From Candidatus Bathyarchaeota archaeon BA2 (GTDB lineage Archaea > Thermoproteota > Bathyarchaeia > Bathyarchaeales > Bathyarchaeaceae): a stretch of 52,557 bases of DNA. The translations under genes were made by a program, and so were the position numbers. The notes beneath the pieces were generated by a model. It had not been told where the DNA came from. It made no database searches and saw nothing but the letters and a program-made list of their open reading frames with translations. The DNA is taken from NCBI GenBank assembly GCA_001399795.1, contig LIHK01000054.1:375-52931 (forward strand), written 5' to 3'. Within the stretch, counting starts at the first letter, position 1; every line of letters begins with the position of its first letter. Shown here one piece after another: positions 22,176 through 52,356 of this stretch.

Positions 22176-23465
22176 ATGAGTAGAGAAATAGTAGTAGAAC
22201 ATCTGGCCAGAGTTGAAGGCCACGGAAGAATAGAGGTCACGGTTGAAGGTGAAAAAGTAAAAGATGTCAAGATGGGAATTCTTGAAGGCCCAAGATTCTT
22301 TGAGGCATTCATTGAAGGCGTAAAGTACGACAAGGTTCCAGATGTAATGAGAAGAATCTGCGCAATATGCACCGCCGCCCATAGCCTTGCTTCCATTCGC
22401 GCTATTGAGAAGGCTTTCAAAGTCGAAGTTACCCCCCAGACAAAGTTGCTGAGGGACCTCCTCATACATGGAGAGATGATTGAAAGCCACGCATTACATG
22501 TGTTCATGCTCGCGCTTCCAGATTACTTAGGATATCCAGATGCAATAAGCATGGTTGACAAGTATGCCAAGGAAGTGAAGGCGGCGCTCCAACTAAAAAA
22601 AGCGGGAAACATGGTCCACATCCTTTTAAGTGGAAGAGAAGTCCACGGCATGAATGAACGCGTAGGAGGAATTTCAACCATACCCGAAGAGCAAGACCTG
22701 CTCGCAATCAGGAAAGCCATGGAAGGCTCCAAAGCAACAGCTGAACTTGCGGTAAAACTGTTCACAACCATAGATGTCCCTGATTTTGCACAATCCGAAA
22801 ATGCTCTCATGGCGTTGGATCCGGGAAAGAAATTTGGATATATCGGCGATTACGTGCTGATTTCCAATGGAGAAAGGAGAAGAGTTGAAGAGTACAGAGA
22901 ACTGACAAATGAAAAAGTGGTGAAGCACGCCCACGCAAAGCACTCTTCCTACAAGGATTCTCCCTTCATGGTTGGAGCCCTTCCCAGAATTTGTCTTTGC
23001 AAAGACAAACTCTACGGAACAGCTAAGGAGCTGTTTAAAGAGTATGAAGACAAACTGGATCACAGAAATTCTCTAAACAATAACCTAGCCCAAGCAATAG
23101 AGCTCGTCCACAGCGTAGACAGATGCATCGAAGACATAGACGAGCTTTTGAGCAACGGCCTCGAAAAAGAGGGGCTGGTGGAAATTGAGCCAAGAGAAAG
23201 CTCCGCAGTCGGCGCCGTAGAGGCTCCGAGGGGAATTCTCTACCACAACTATTCCTTCGATGAGAACGGTTGCATAACTAAAGCCAACGTGATAACGCCC
23301 ACAGCTATGAACTGCGCCAACATAGAGAAGGACTGTAGAGTTGCTGTTGAAAGGCTGGTCGCTGAGGGAAAGAAGAATTTAGAAGAGCCCTTGGAGCTAA
23401 TTGCAAGGGCCTACGATCCTTGCATATCCTGCTCGGTGCACCTAGTTAAAGTAAAGTTTCTTTAG
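22176..23465 (+). CDS. hydA: Group 3b hydrogenase alpha (large, NiFe) subunit
   Basis: 429 aa, ATG preceded by GGAGGT. Ni-Fe ligands are RICAICTAAH (L1) and DPCISCSVH (L2), all four cysteines present. A short tail of 7 residues (LVKVKFL) follows the L2 histidine. In known members the tail is cleaved after that His by a dedicated protease; such a protease is encoded at 18.8 kb. It is the H2-activating subunit of a cytosolic sulfhydrogenase-type enzyme and the last gene of hydBGDA. It is convergent with mvhA, with about 200 nt between them. Confidence 0.93.
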   Translation: MSREIVVEHLARVEGHGRIEVTVEGEKVKDVKMGILEGPRFFEAFIEGVKYDKVPDVMRRICAICTAAHSLASIRAIEKAFKVEVTPQTKLLRDLLIHGEMIESHALHVFMLALPDYLGYPDAISMVDKYAKEVKAALQLKKAGNMVHILLSGREVHGMNERVGGISTIPEEQDLLAIRKAMEGSKATAELAVKLFTTIDVPDFAQSENALMALDPGKKFGYIGDYVLISNGERRRVEEYRELTNEKVVKHAHAKHSSYKDSPFMVGALPRICLCKDKLYGTAKELFKEYEDKLDHRNSLNNNLAQAIELVHSVDRCIEDIDELLSNGLEKEGLVEIEPRESSAVGAVEAPRGILYHNYSFDENGCITKANVITPTAMNCANIEKDCRVAVERLVAEGKKNLEEPLELIARAYDPCISCSVHLVKVKFL

Positions 23466-23673: not shown

Positions 23674-25128
23674 TCACCTTTTCAAGGTTTTCAGCAACTT
23701 TTTGTTGTGGCTGTATATTTTCACTTCGAGGGGCATTTGACCTATTGCGAAGTGGGTTGCGCAGGCCCAGCATGGGTCATAGGCTCTGAAGGCCATCTCC
23801 ACCATGTTCAATATTCCCTGGCTCACTTCTCCGCCGTGTATAAGGCCTTTGGCTGCGTCTCTTATGGACATGCATATGGCGGAAGAGTTGTTTGTTGTAG
23901 CCACTATTAGATTGACCTTTTTTATTAGGGCGTCTTCGTCAAGTTGATAGTGATGTATCAGGGTGCCCCTGGCCGCTTCGATTATTCCGACTCCTTCTCT
24001 GGGGTTGCCTACCTCATTCCGAAGGTCTTTACTTGTTATCTCCTCGTCTCTGCTTAGTTCTAAGCATCTTTCTGCCGCGTATAGTAGTTCTATGAGTCTG
24101 GCCCAATGAAATGCAAGAGTTGAGTGTACCGGCTTTCCGCCCAGTGTTTCATACATTCTCTCATATTCTTGCTGTGCTAGAGGAGTTGCCATACCCTCTG
24201 AAGCGTTTAACCTACCGAGCGGTCCAACCCTGTAAACGCCACTTGCTGGACCGTCAACTAAGCCTTTCCATCCAACCTTTTTGAGGTACGTCAATTTCGT
24301 GTATGTCCAGTCTTCCACGCGTTCCTCGATGACATCCAAGTATTCGGAGGGGCCAAATTTCACAAACTCTTTGCCTTGAGGGTCAACCACCCTTACTTTA
24401 CCATCATAGAAGTTGACTTTGTTGTTTTGGTCAACCGTGCCCATGTAATACGTTTTGAGAGTGTACGGGGCACTCAGGATTATGTCTACGTACTTCTTGT
24501 TCTTCAACACAACATCATCAAATATTTTTAAGCTGAACTTTGCGAATTCAACGCTAGACTCCGCCATCTCTTCAATTTCCTGCCTCTCCTCCTCTGTGAG
24601 TCCTTTGGATATGCCCCCAGGTAGTCCACAGTTGGGGTGAGTTGCTTTTCCGCCAAACATGGCGGTGATTTTTTGTCCGTAGGCTCTGTGCTTTATTACC
24701 TCTTTCGCTATGTCTAAACCAACTTTTCGGATTACTCCAAGAATGTTTCTTTCCGCTGGTGGGGCATCTGGTCCAACAACAAAGTCTGGTGCCCCTAGAA
24801 AGTAGAAGTGAAGAGTGTGATCATAGACATAATAGCCACTATACATGAGTTCCCTAAGCTTTTTAGCTGCCGGAGGAGGTTCAACGTTAAATGCGGCGTC
24901 TAACGCTTTTGTTGAGGCAAAATGGTGCGCAACTGGGCAAACACCGCAGATTCTGGGCGTAATTATCGGTAAATCCTCGGCCCTTCTACCCTCGCAGAAC
25001 CTCTCAAACCCTCTCAGCTCTGGAACTTGGAAGTAAGCGTTCTCTACGTTTCCATCCTCATTTAGGAATATGGATATTTTTCCATGGCCCTCTAGTCTAG
25101 TGATGGGGTCTATGGTTATTGTTTTCAT
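23674..25128 (-). CDS. mvhA: Group 3c (MvhA-type) hydrogenase large subunit
   Basis: 484 aa. L1 motif RICGVCPVAH (about 60-69) and L2 motif DPCWACATH carry the four Ni-Fe cysteines. A 26-residue C-terminal extension follows the L2 histidine and would be cut off on maturation. The N-terminus ITIDPITRLEGHGKI is canonical. This is the H2-splitting subunit of the F420-non-reducing hydrogenase that partners HdrABC. It overlaps mvhG by 4 nt and is the last clear gene of the long hdr/mvh operon. Confidence 0.93.
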   Translation of the reverse strand: MKTITIDPITRLEGHGKISIFLNEDGNVENAYFQVPELRGFERFCEGRRAEDLPIITPRICGVCPVAHHFASTKALDAAFNVEPPPAAKKLRELMYSGYYVYDHTLHFYFLGAPDFVVGPDAPPAERNILGVIRKVGLDIAKEVIKHRAYGQKITAMFGGKATHPNCGLPGGISKGLTEEERQEIEEMAESSVEFAKFSLKIFDDVVLKNKKYVDIILSAPYTLKTYYMGTVDQNNKVNFYDGKVRVVDPQGKEFVKFGPSEYLDVIEERVEDWTYTKLTYLKKVGWKGLVDGPASGVYRVGPLGRLNASEGMATPLAQQEYERMYETLGGKPVHSTLAFHWARLIELLYAAERCLELSRDEEITSKDLRNEVGNPREGVGIIEAARGTLIHHYQLDEDALIKKVNLIVATTNNSSAICMSIRDAAKGLIHGGEVSQGILNMVEMAFRAYDPCWACATHFAIGQMPLEVKIYSHNKKLLKTLKR

Positions 25129-50460: not shown

Positions 50461-50552
50461 AAAGCCCAAGAATGTCGGCACTTATACCCAAATGAAACTT
50501 TATAAGGGAATATTATTTAATTGTGGGCAATAAATCGATTTGGTGGGAATAT

Positions 50553-50777
50553 ATGACGGTTGTGACGTTGAGTTCGAAGGGTAGATTAACGCTTCCAGCC
50601 GAGGTAGGGACTAAAATTAAAGCAGCAAGGTTTTTGGTTGTTTTGGAAGGCAATTCCATTAGGTTGATTCCGCTTTCAGACCCATTAAAATTAAAGGGGT
50701 CGGTTAAGATCCCTTGGAGCATCGAGGAGCTTGAAGAGGCTGGCGAGGAATTTGTATCCAAAAGAGTTGAAGGGTAG
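50553..50777 (+). CDS. vapB: AbrB-type antitoxin of a PIN toxin pair
   Basis: ATG 50553 (MTVVTLSSKGRLTLP) is the conserved start; the track ORF adds ten residues from a TTG. 74 aa with an AbrB swapped hairpin and an acidic C-terminal tail (SIEELEEAGEEFV) that usually neutralises the toxin. Its stop overlaps the start of a PIN-domain frame. The pair is inserted between hypA and hypD. Confidence 0.75.
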   Translation: MTVVTLSSKGRLTLPAEVGTKIKAARFLVVLEGNSIRLIPLSDPLKLKGSVKIPWSIEELEEAGEEFVSKRVEG

Positions 50778-51199
50778 ATTCCTCTTAGACTCTGATGTTT
50801 TATATCGTATATTAGAGGGAATATAAGCTTGCAGACCATGCGGAGGTTGTTGTAAAATCAATAGTTGAAGGCATGGCAGAAGTGTTTGTATCATCTATGT
50901 TATATGATGATGTGATTTCTGGACTACGCTCAAAGGGCATGGAGCTCGCAGATGTGATGCAGGTTCTCACAGCTATAGCGTCAATACCTCATACACCTCT
51001 TCCCGTAACTCCAGCAATCGCTATAAGCGCTTTAACACTTTACATGCAGCATGGCGGTCCAAGAAAAATCCATTATTTCGATACGTTTCATGTGGCAACG
51101 GCTAGACTTCATGAATTGCCGATGATAACAAGCGACATTTACATAAACGAACATCAAAGGAACCTAGGTATAACAGCGGTTGACCTGAAAAAGTTATGA
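50767..51199 (+). pseudogene. vapC: PIN-domain toxin (VapC-like), frameshifted
   Basis: The first frame from TTG 50767 encodes GRFLLDSDVLYRILEG (first catalytic Asp) and stops at 50827. The next frame continues YKLADHAEVVVKSIVEGMAE and onward, with FDTFHVATARLHELPMITSD supplying the later acidic residues. Removing one base near 50824 joins the two with no residue missing. So the toxin is either broken by a one-base insertion or affected by a sequence error. The ORF track shows only the second part (50873..51199). Confidence 0.7.
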
Positions 51200-51240
51200 A
51201 GCCCATTTATTTCACAGCTCTAATGGTAAATGTAGTGGGG

Positions 51241-52356
51241 GTGAGGCTGGCGTCAATTTCTAGGTTTAGAGATCCAAACCTAGTTCGGAAAACAGCAGAA
51301 CACATCAAAAAACTAGCAGAAAGAAGTAAATTCACGTTCATGCATGTGTGTGGAACGTATTTAGCAACCTAGCTAGATACGCACAAGACACATGAATGGA
51401 CGATAGCCCGCTACGGTCTTCGAGCTCTTCTTTCCGACACTGTGGATGTTATTGCTGGGCCGGGCTGTCCCGTCTGCATCCTCCCCGCAGCTGAAATCGA
51501 CGAGGCGATATCGTTAGCCCTAAACGAAGTAACTGTTGTAACCTTCGGCGACGTTATTCGGGTTCCTGGCTCTGAATCGTCGCTTCAGGAGGCAAAGGCT
51601 TCTGGTGGGGACGTTAGGATTGTGTATGGCGTTGGGGATGCTGTGAGAATGGCGGAGAAAGAGCCAGACAAGGATTTTGTTTTCTTTGCTATTGGGTTTG
51701 AAACCACGGCGCCGTCTACTGCCATTGAAATCCTTAACAAGCCGCCCCAAAACCTTAGCTTTCTCGTCTCCCATAGGTTGATTCCGCCAGCCATGGAACT
51801 GCTCCTCGGTGTAGGAAACCTTCACATAGACGGCTTCATCGCACCTGGCCACGTTTCCACCATCATCGGAATGAAGCCCTATGAAATATTTCCCAATGCC
51901 TATCGAATGCCTACTGTGATAGCCGGATTCGAGCCTCTGGATGTTCTTTTCGCCATCTCCATGCTGCTCCAGCAGTTAAAGGACGGGGAAGCCAGACTTG
52001 AGAATGAGTATAAGCGTTCTGTCACGTGGGAGGGCAACGTCAAAGCGCAGCGGCTCATGGAGCAAGTGTTCAGTGTGGTGGATGGATGCTGGAGGGGACT
52101 TGGAAAACTTCCCCTATCAGCGCTGGCATTAAAGGAAGAATTCCTAGAGTACGATGCGAGGAAAAAATACGACTTACAGATTGAACGTCCCAGAGACCTG
52201 ATGCCTGGTTGCCTTTGCCACCTAGTCATGATTGGAAAGATAAAGCCTCCAGAATGCCCTCTCTACATGAAGGCTTGCACGCCTCAGACTCCTAAGGGAG
52301 CGTGCATGGTTTCAATTGAAGGCACTTGCAGAATATGGGCCAAACATAAGCTATGA
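51241..52356 (+). CDS. hypD: HypD, interrupted by a predicted 33-nt BHB intron
   Basis: Predicted exon 1 is 51241..51354 (GTG start, 38 codons, SRFRDPNLVRKTAEHIKKLA ... FMHVCG). Predicted exon 2 is 51388..52356 (THEWTIARYGLRALL ... to stop), 360 aa in total, normal for HypD. The genomic frame has TAG at 51367-51369 between them. Spliced, it gives the invariant CGTHEW motif around catalytic Cys37, then GPGCPVCI, FFAIGFETTAPSTA and the C-terminal [4Fe-4S] cysteines (PGCLCHLV, CPLYMKAC). HypD with HypC makes the Fe(CN)2CO unit. The ORF track shows only the part from 51442. Upstream in-frame ATGs (51196, 51223) are possible but lie outside the conserved N-terminus. Confidence 0.88.
51355..51387 (+). 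other. Predicted archaeal bulge-helix-bulge intron in hypD
   Basis: Outer helix CATGTG (51343-51348) with CACATG (51389-51394). Central 4-bp helix TGTG (51349-51352) with CACA (51382-51385). Three-nt bulges GAA (51353-51355) and AGA (51386-51388) on opposite strands. Inner helix CGTATTTAGC (51356-51365) with GCTAGATACG (51372-51381), ten pairs including one U-G, closing a 6-nt loop. Cutting each bulge after its second base, as the tRNA splicing endonuclease does, removes exactly 51355..51387 and joins GGA to ACA CAT GAA TGG. Confidence 0.85.

Follow-up and report, generated by a model that had tools for sequence, protein, structure and literature searches.

A putative 33-nt BHB intron in the CGTHE motif of hypD, one of at least six candidate pre-mRNA introns in a Bathyarchaeial genome

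A pre-mRNA intron in the cbf5 gene of Crenarchaeota was reportedly described by Watanabe in 2002. As characterized by Yokobori et al. (2009), this intron forms a BHB motif in which both bulges are cut between bases 2 and 3, and it is placed in codons of the catalytic motif; very short forms occur (36 bp in Staphylothermus), and the intron has been linked to hetero-oligomeric EndA (PMC2738675). BHB introns of archaeal tRNA and rRNA share their motif and endonuclease with the case presented here, which differs in residing in an mRNA. In Haloferax, the HVO_1309 mRNA is cut by EndA at a BHB in its 5' UTR, and a 2020 study stated that, among archaea, the only additional BHB intron to have been reported was that of the cbf5 mRNA (PMC7714728). 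We describe a hypD gene whose 33-nt insert resembles the crenarchaeal cbf5 intron in motif and cutting rule. It differs from that intron in its gene, in its lineage (Bathyarchaeia, not Crenarchaeota), and in being predicted from sequence; it differs from HVO_1309 in that the BHB is inside a conserved coding motif. Within the open-access literature, with subscription papers and preprints outside this scope, we found no BHB intron in hypD, gatE, tyrS, infB, or pcm and none from Bathyarchaeia, in line with the statement of an initial sequence-only reading that such an intron in hypD is not known to have been reported.

The window analysed here, a stretch of 52,557 nt (C22:375-52931), runs to the end of its contig and belongs to a 1.46-Mb Bathyarchaeial metagenome bin (G000; completeness 92.5%, contamination 3.5%). 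The nearest relatives of its hypD are from Candidatus Bathyarchaeota MAGs, at amino-acid identities of at most 84%. Between hypA and hypD (window 50523-51199), a PIN-domain gene accompanies a small AbrB-like ORF, the two resembling a toxin-antitoxin pair; in several relatives, hypA is directly 5' of hypD without this pair in between.

The hypD frame contains a single TAG, located within 33 nt that separate MHVCG from THEWT, base for base as the sequence-only reading had claimed. Flanks and insert read, in order, CATGTG-TGTG-GAA-CGTATTTAGC-AACCTA-GCTAGATACG-CACA-AGA-CACATG, and would pair into an outer helix of 6 bp, a central helix of 4 bp, and an intron helix of 10 bp, with two 3-nt bulges on opposite strands (Table 1). 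All elements of the claimed geometry are found as described, and the motif has the polarity of archaeal introns, with the 5' arm of the central helix in the exon and the 3' arm in the intron. Cuts after the second base of both bulges remove exactly 51355-51387 and leave CAT GTG TGT GGA ACA CAT GAA TGG (HVCGTHEW), recovering the proposed regeneration of GGA-ACA-CAT-GAA-TGG. The spliced HypD matches the Pfam HypD profile over residues 14-358 (profile positions 2-350 of 351; E = 5e-142). Translation of unspliced hypD would give a peptide of 43 residues from the GTG at 51241, one more than the 42 first stated, or of 49 residues from an alternative in-frame ATG at 51223.

Table 1. Features of the hypD locus and of the candidate introns in other protein genes of the same genome. 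Locations refer to the window unless a contig is given.
Feature	Location	Strand	Remarks
[NiFe]-hydrogenase large-subunit genes (n = 2)	22176-23465 and 23674-25128		same window as hypD; Pfam
hypD	51241-52356	+	3' of hypF, hypB, hypA (Pfam)
hypD exon 1	51241-51354	+	GTG start, ends ...MHVCG; Pfam HypD
Outer exon helix, 5' arm CATGTG	51343-51348	+
Central helix, 5' arm TGTG, exonic	51349-51352	+
5' bulge GAA, cut GA/A	51353-51355	+	predicted 5' splice site 51354/51355
Candidate 33-nt BHB intron ACGTATTTAGCAACCTAGCTAGATACGCACAAG	51355-51387	+	in-frame TAG at 51370-51372
Intron stem-loop, 10 bp + 6-nt loop	51356-51381	+
Intron helix arms, 10 bp including one G-U	51356-51365 (CGTATTTAGC) and 51372-51381 (GCTAGATACG)	+
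Intron loop AACCTA	51366-51371	+
Central helix, 3' arm CACA, intronic	51382-51385	+
3' bulge AGA, cut AG/A	51386-51388	+	predicted 3' splice site 51387/51388
hypD exon 2	51388-52356	+	begins ACA CAT GAA TGG (THEW), runs to stop
Outer exon helix, 3' arm CACATG	51389-51394	+
Junction peptide of spliced HypD			FMHVCGTHEWTIAR
gatE candidate intron, 35 nt	C31:22891-22925	-	LVEA/DEEPPH
infB/aIF5B candidate intron, 32 nt	C12:5238-5269	-	P-loop GHI/DTGKT
tyrS candidate intron, 34 nt	C19:9431-9464	-	CSGL/MHIG; relaxed motif without outer helix
pcm candidate intron, 30 nt	C47:5042-5071	+	GQTISAP/HMV
cbf5 candidate intron, 18 nt	C38:14533-14550	-	GGTL/DPKVTG

A BHB motif by itself proves little, because simulated sequence contains weaker BHB-shaped motifs at least as often as the genome does. 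The weight of the hypD case is that the motif coincides with a junction defined by homology. In a scan of the whole genome (1.46 Mb), only one strict motif ranks above that of hypD, which leads all those that re-open a long frame, and no short-intron motif in 12 Markov-simulated genomes reached its score. Shuffling the 33 nt between the real hypD exons produced an equal motif in 0 of 500,000 trials and any 4+4-bp motif in register in 0.07% of the shuffled inserts. The z-score of the fold is -5.6; as a mild caveat, the predicted minimum-energy fold, in which 7 exon bases pair and an internal loop remains, is more stable than the exact motif by 1.4 kcal/mol. The strongest BHB-like hairpin genome-wide, with an 80-nt interior (C13:90508-90587), is in apparently non-coding DNA and is possibly a processed small RNA.

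A hypD match above the family cut-off is present in 132 of the 163 genomes of the order (131 besides our own). No stop or split occurs at the intron site in the other hypD genes of the order (131 other genomes, with a few fragments missing the site). Relatives read FCHVCGTHE, the contiguous motif having been read directly in the fetched loci, and two genomes (G041 and G156) have one TAA each inside the hypD match with the CGTHE motif unbroken. The search for the same insertion in related HypD genes, suggested alongside the original claim, was thus run across the order and encountered it in no other hypD; among the genomes compared, the insert appears private to our genome. Being confined to one genome, it offers no compensatory changes in hypD to compare, and it resembles no other sequence in the genome, including the other introns and the tRNAs. 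We infer that it is a recent gain.

The spliced hypD frame has a dN/dS of 0.104 against one related locus (L033) and 0.098 against another (L034), and is under purifying selection. These values bear on the alternatives of a hypD pseudogene and of an insert created by faulty assembly or sequencing, a suspicion fed by the origin of the contig in a metagenome bin (92.5% complete, 3.5% contamination) and by a second hypD-like C terminus at a contig edge. Such an account sits poorly with a single interruption in 360 codons and a dN/dS of about 0.10, and with an exact splice geometry that 500,000 shuffles did not equal. Like inserts in five other genes, among them tyrS, infB, and cbf5, and disruption of pcm at one site in 90 of 123 separate genomes (both described below) argue further against it, and we consider decay or error very unlikely.

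The machinery required by a BHB intron is encoded in the genome, which has two EndA-type genes. In the first subunit, Tyr, His, and Lys are retained at the catalytic positions, and its closest PDB entries are 3p1z and 3ajv, which we take to be the Aeropyrum pernix enzyme. The second lacks the catalytic His and looks structural. The splicing endonuclease of this genome is predicted to be of the (alpha-beta)2 type, and endonucleases of this type cut canonical as well as relaxed BHBs (PMC6379350). An RtcB ligase gene is also present, and the tRNA genes Ser-CGA and Glu-CTC contain strict BHB introns of 16-17 nt.

hypD, which had been seen as an isolated case, turns out to have company, with predicted introns of this kind in at least six protein genes of the genome, hypD included (Table 1). 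The inserts in gatE, tyrS, and infB were found by comparing the ORFs of a related genome (G008) with our own, and those in pcm and cbf5 by the motif scan, the latter two genes being named from their own motifs and from matches in relatives. Bulge cuts restore conserved sequence in all five, shuffled inserts are as good in at most 2 per 100,000 trials, and family models match GatE, TyrS, and IF-2 across their spliced junctions, as for HypD. The cbf5 insert splits the catalytic Asp codon after its first base, and Yokobori et al. place the crenarchaeal cbf5 intron at precisely this site, for which spliced cDNA was obtained (PMC2738675). The scan was not aimed at cbf5 and therefore recovered independently the site of the one known case of archaeal mRNA splicing. 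No further convincing introns emerged when the proteins of our genome were compared with 800 kb of G008 and the other fetched loci. Candidates at C32:12935, C13:30015, C13:109257, C12:27994, C4:26700, C1:7481, and C12:41061 proved to be neighbouring genes, intact frames, or spurious, and what looked like disruptions in o887, o234, and o1024 came from start-region noise, frameshifts, or antisense frames and not from BHB introns. As separate observations, cbf5 on C38 also has an intein-like insertion of about 500 residues, which starts CVPGDTEI and ends VVSN before C, and a short frame at C4:17253-17366 (minus strand) is similar to TyrRS residues 7-44 (61%), is close to exon 1 of the split tyrS, and is perhaps a partial duplicate of that gene.

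Short in-frame hairpin inserts are a hallmark of programmed bypassing elements, and the hypD insert is a short hairpin inside a frame. A ribosome might therefore skip the hairpin on unspliced mRNA, as in phage T4 gene 60 or the yeast mitochondrial byps, but the insert lacks matching take-off and landing codons, with GGA before it and none at its end. The cut points, moreover, fall within 3-nt bulges whose polarity is exactly that of an EndA substrate, and the cbf5 insert occupies a site for which spliced cDNA has been shown in Crenarchaeota (PMC2738675); bypassing is highly improbable. The 33 nt also preserve the frame and contain a single TAG, as would suit readthrough, for example with pyrrolysine, into a HypD with 11 extra residues. 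Those residues would fall inside the invariant CGTHE motif and are seen in no relative, and readthrough cannot rescue the frame-shifting inserts of gatE, tyrS, and infB (35, 34, and 32 nt), leaving it scarcely credible as an account of hypD.

Several of the candidate introns outside hypD have counterparts in relatives. Across the order, 90 of the 123 genomes with a pcm match, about three quarters, have the gene disrupted at the residue interrupted in our genome, and 31 have it intact; in 20 of the disrupted genes there are in-frame stops and about 30-36 extra nt, and in the other 70 the gene is split into two matches or the match starts there. In the family, 11 other genomes have cbf5 disrupted around residue 77 and five have it intact. 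For tyrS, a split at residues 43-48 occurs in G015, G019, G020, and G025, and probably in G160 as well. Matches to infB begin at residue 44 in G001, G023, G024, and G025, and the disruption of this gene probably recurs in those four relatives. For pcm, cbf5, infB, and tyrS, a BHB motif in the relatives is what we infer from position and coordinates only. For gatE, the motif was read directly: the gatE of G023 (locus L260) is split at the same place by the same motif, 91% identical, and the intron helices of the two genomes differ by one structure-neutral G-C to G-U change. In this pair, the resemblance is closer over the intron and the upstream exon (EGYKDTTCLVEA) than over the downstream exon (identity 81% for exon 1 and 68% for exon 2), which hints at local transfer or co-conversion of the intron plus its flank.

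The sequence-only reading had further proposed that HypD, and hence both hydrogenases, need splicing. A 33.4-kb contig of the genome (C15) opens with the final 22 codons of a further hypD-like gene, truncated by the contig edge and 87% identical over 62 bases to the hypD of the window and 90% identical to that of G025 and G026. The intron could thus be real and spliced while an intact second hypD supplies HypD, so that splicing is not required for hydrogenase maturation. This reading concerns the consequence only and is compatible with a BHB intron in hypD. It has the 22-codon end at the edge of C15 in its favour, but those 22 codons are all that is seen, and they may come from another, related strain that was binned here or be left over beside an insertion; an intact second copy is unlikely, though well short of negligible. 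The dependence of both hydrogenases on splicing is left a weaker claim, because it assumes that there is no second hypD. Around this edge (C15:1-1569, L002), the hypD-like end gives way to further ORFs, to a leftover hypD end, and to 228 bases that are 93% identical to the end of C22, the contig of the window.

We conclude that hypD very probably carries a 33-nt archaeal BHB pre-mRNA intron that would be cut out by EndA, with RtcB joining the exons into an mRNA reading MHVCGTHEWT. The BHB-intron reading is upheld by the geometry and polarity of the motif, the restored frame, the absence of the insert from relatives, purifying selection, the EndA and RtcB genes, and an intron at the classic cbf5 position elsewhere in the genome. 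Once transcribed, hypD RNA would fold into a motif whose outer helix is built from the codons around HVC and THE, and the (alpha-beta)2 splicing endonuclease would cut both 3-nt bulges after the second base. RtcB would then join the exons into the mature mRNA, which would be translated, and the 33-nt intron would be released, probably as a circle. Splicing of hypD in the cell, and its efficiency, are presumed here from these features, and an on/off switch, as the sequence-only reading suggested, or any other regulatory role is speculation. By every testable feature, the predicted hypD intron belongs to the cbf5 kind.

Novelty lies here in the gene and the lineage and, most of all, in how many introns there are. 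The intron claim is directly testable, because Bathyarchaeum tardum is kept in enrichment culture (PMC10477458) and G012, apparently its own genome, shows the pcm and cbf5 disruptions. Intron gain is likewise open to test, with single-genome (hypD), family-level (tyrS, cbf5), and order-wide (pcm) cases to compare; the introns compared all lie in codons of conserved motifs, and their exons help to build the BHB motif. Standard gene callers would break such genes and label them pseudogenes. It is likely that Bathyarchaeales are a lineage with recurrent pre-mRNA introns, in at least six genes, 18-35 nt long and in codons from highly conserved motifs, some old (pcm) and others newly gained (hypD), and that splicing of mRNA by the tRNA enzyme is routine there and still spreading, not a lone oddity of cbf5. 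If this is true, pre-mRNA splicing would be a regular feature of a widespread archaeal class.
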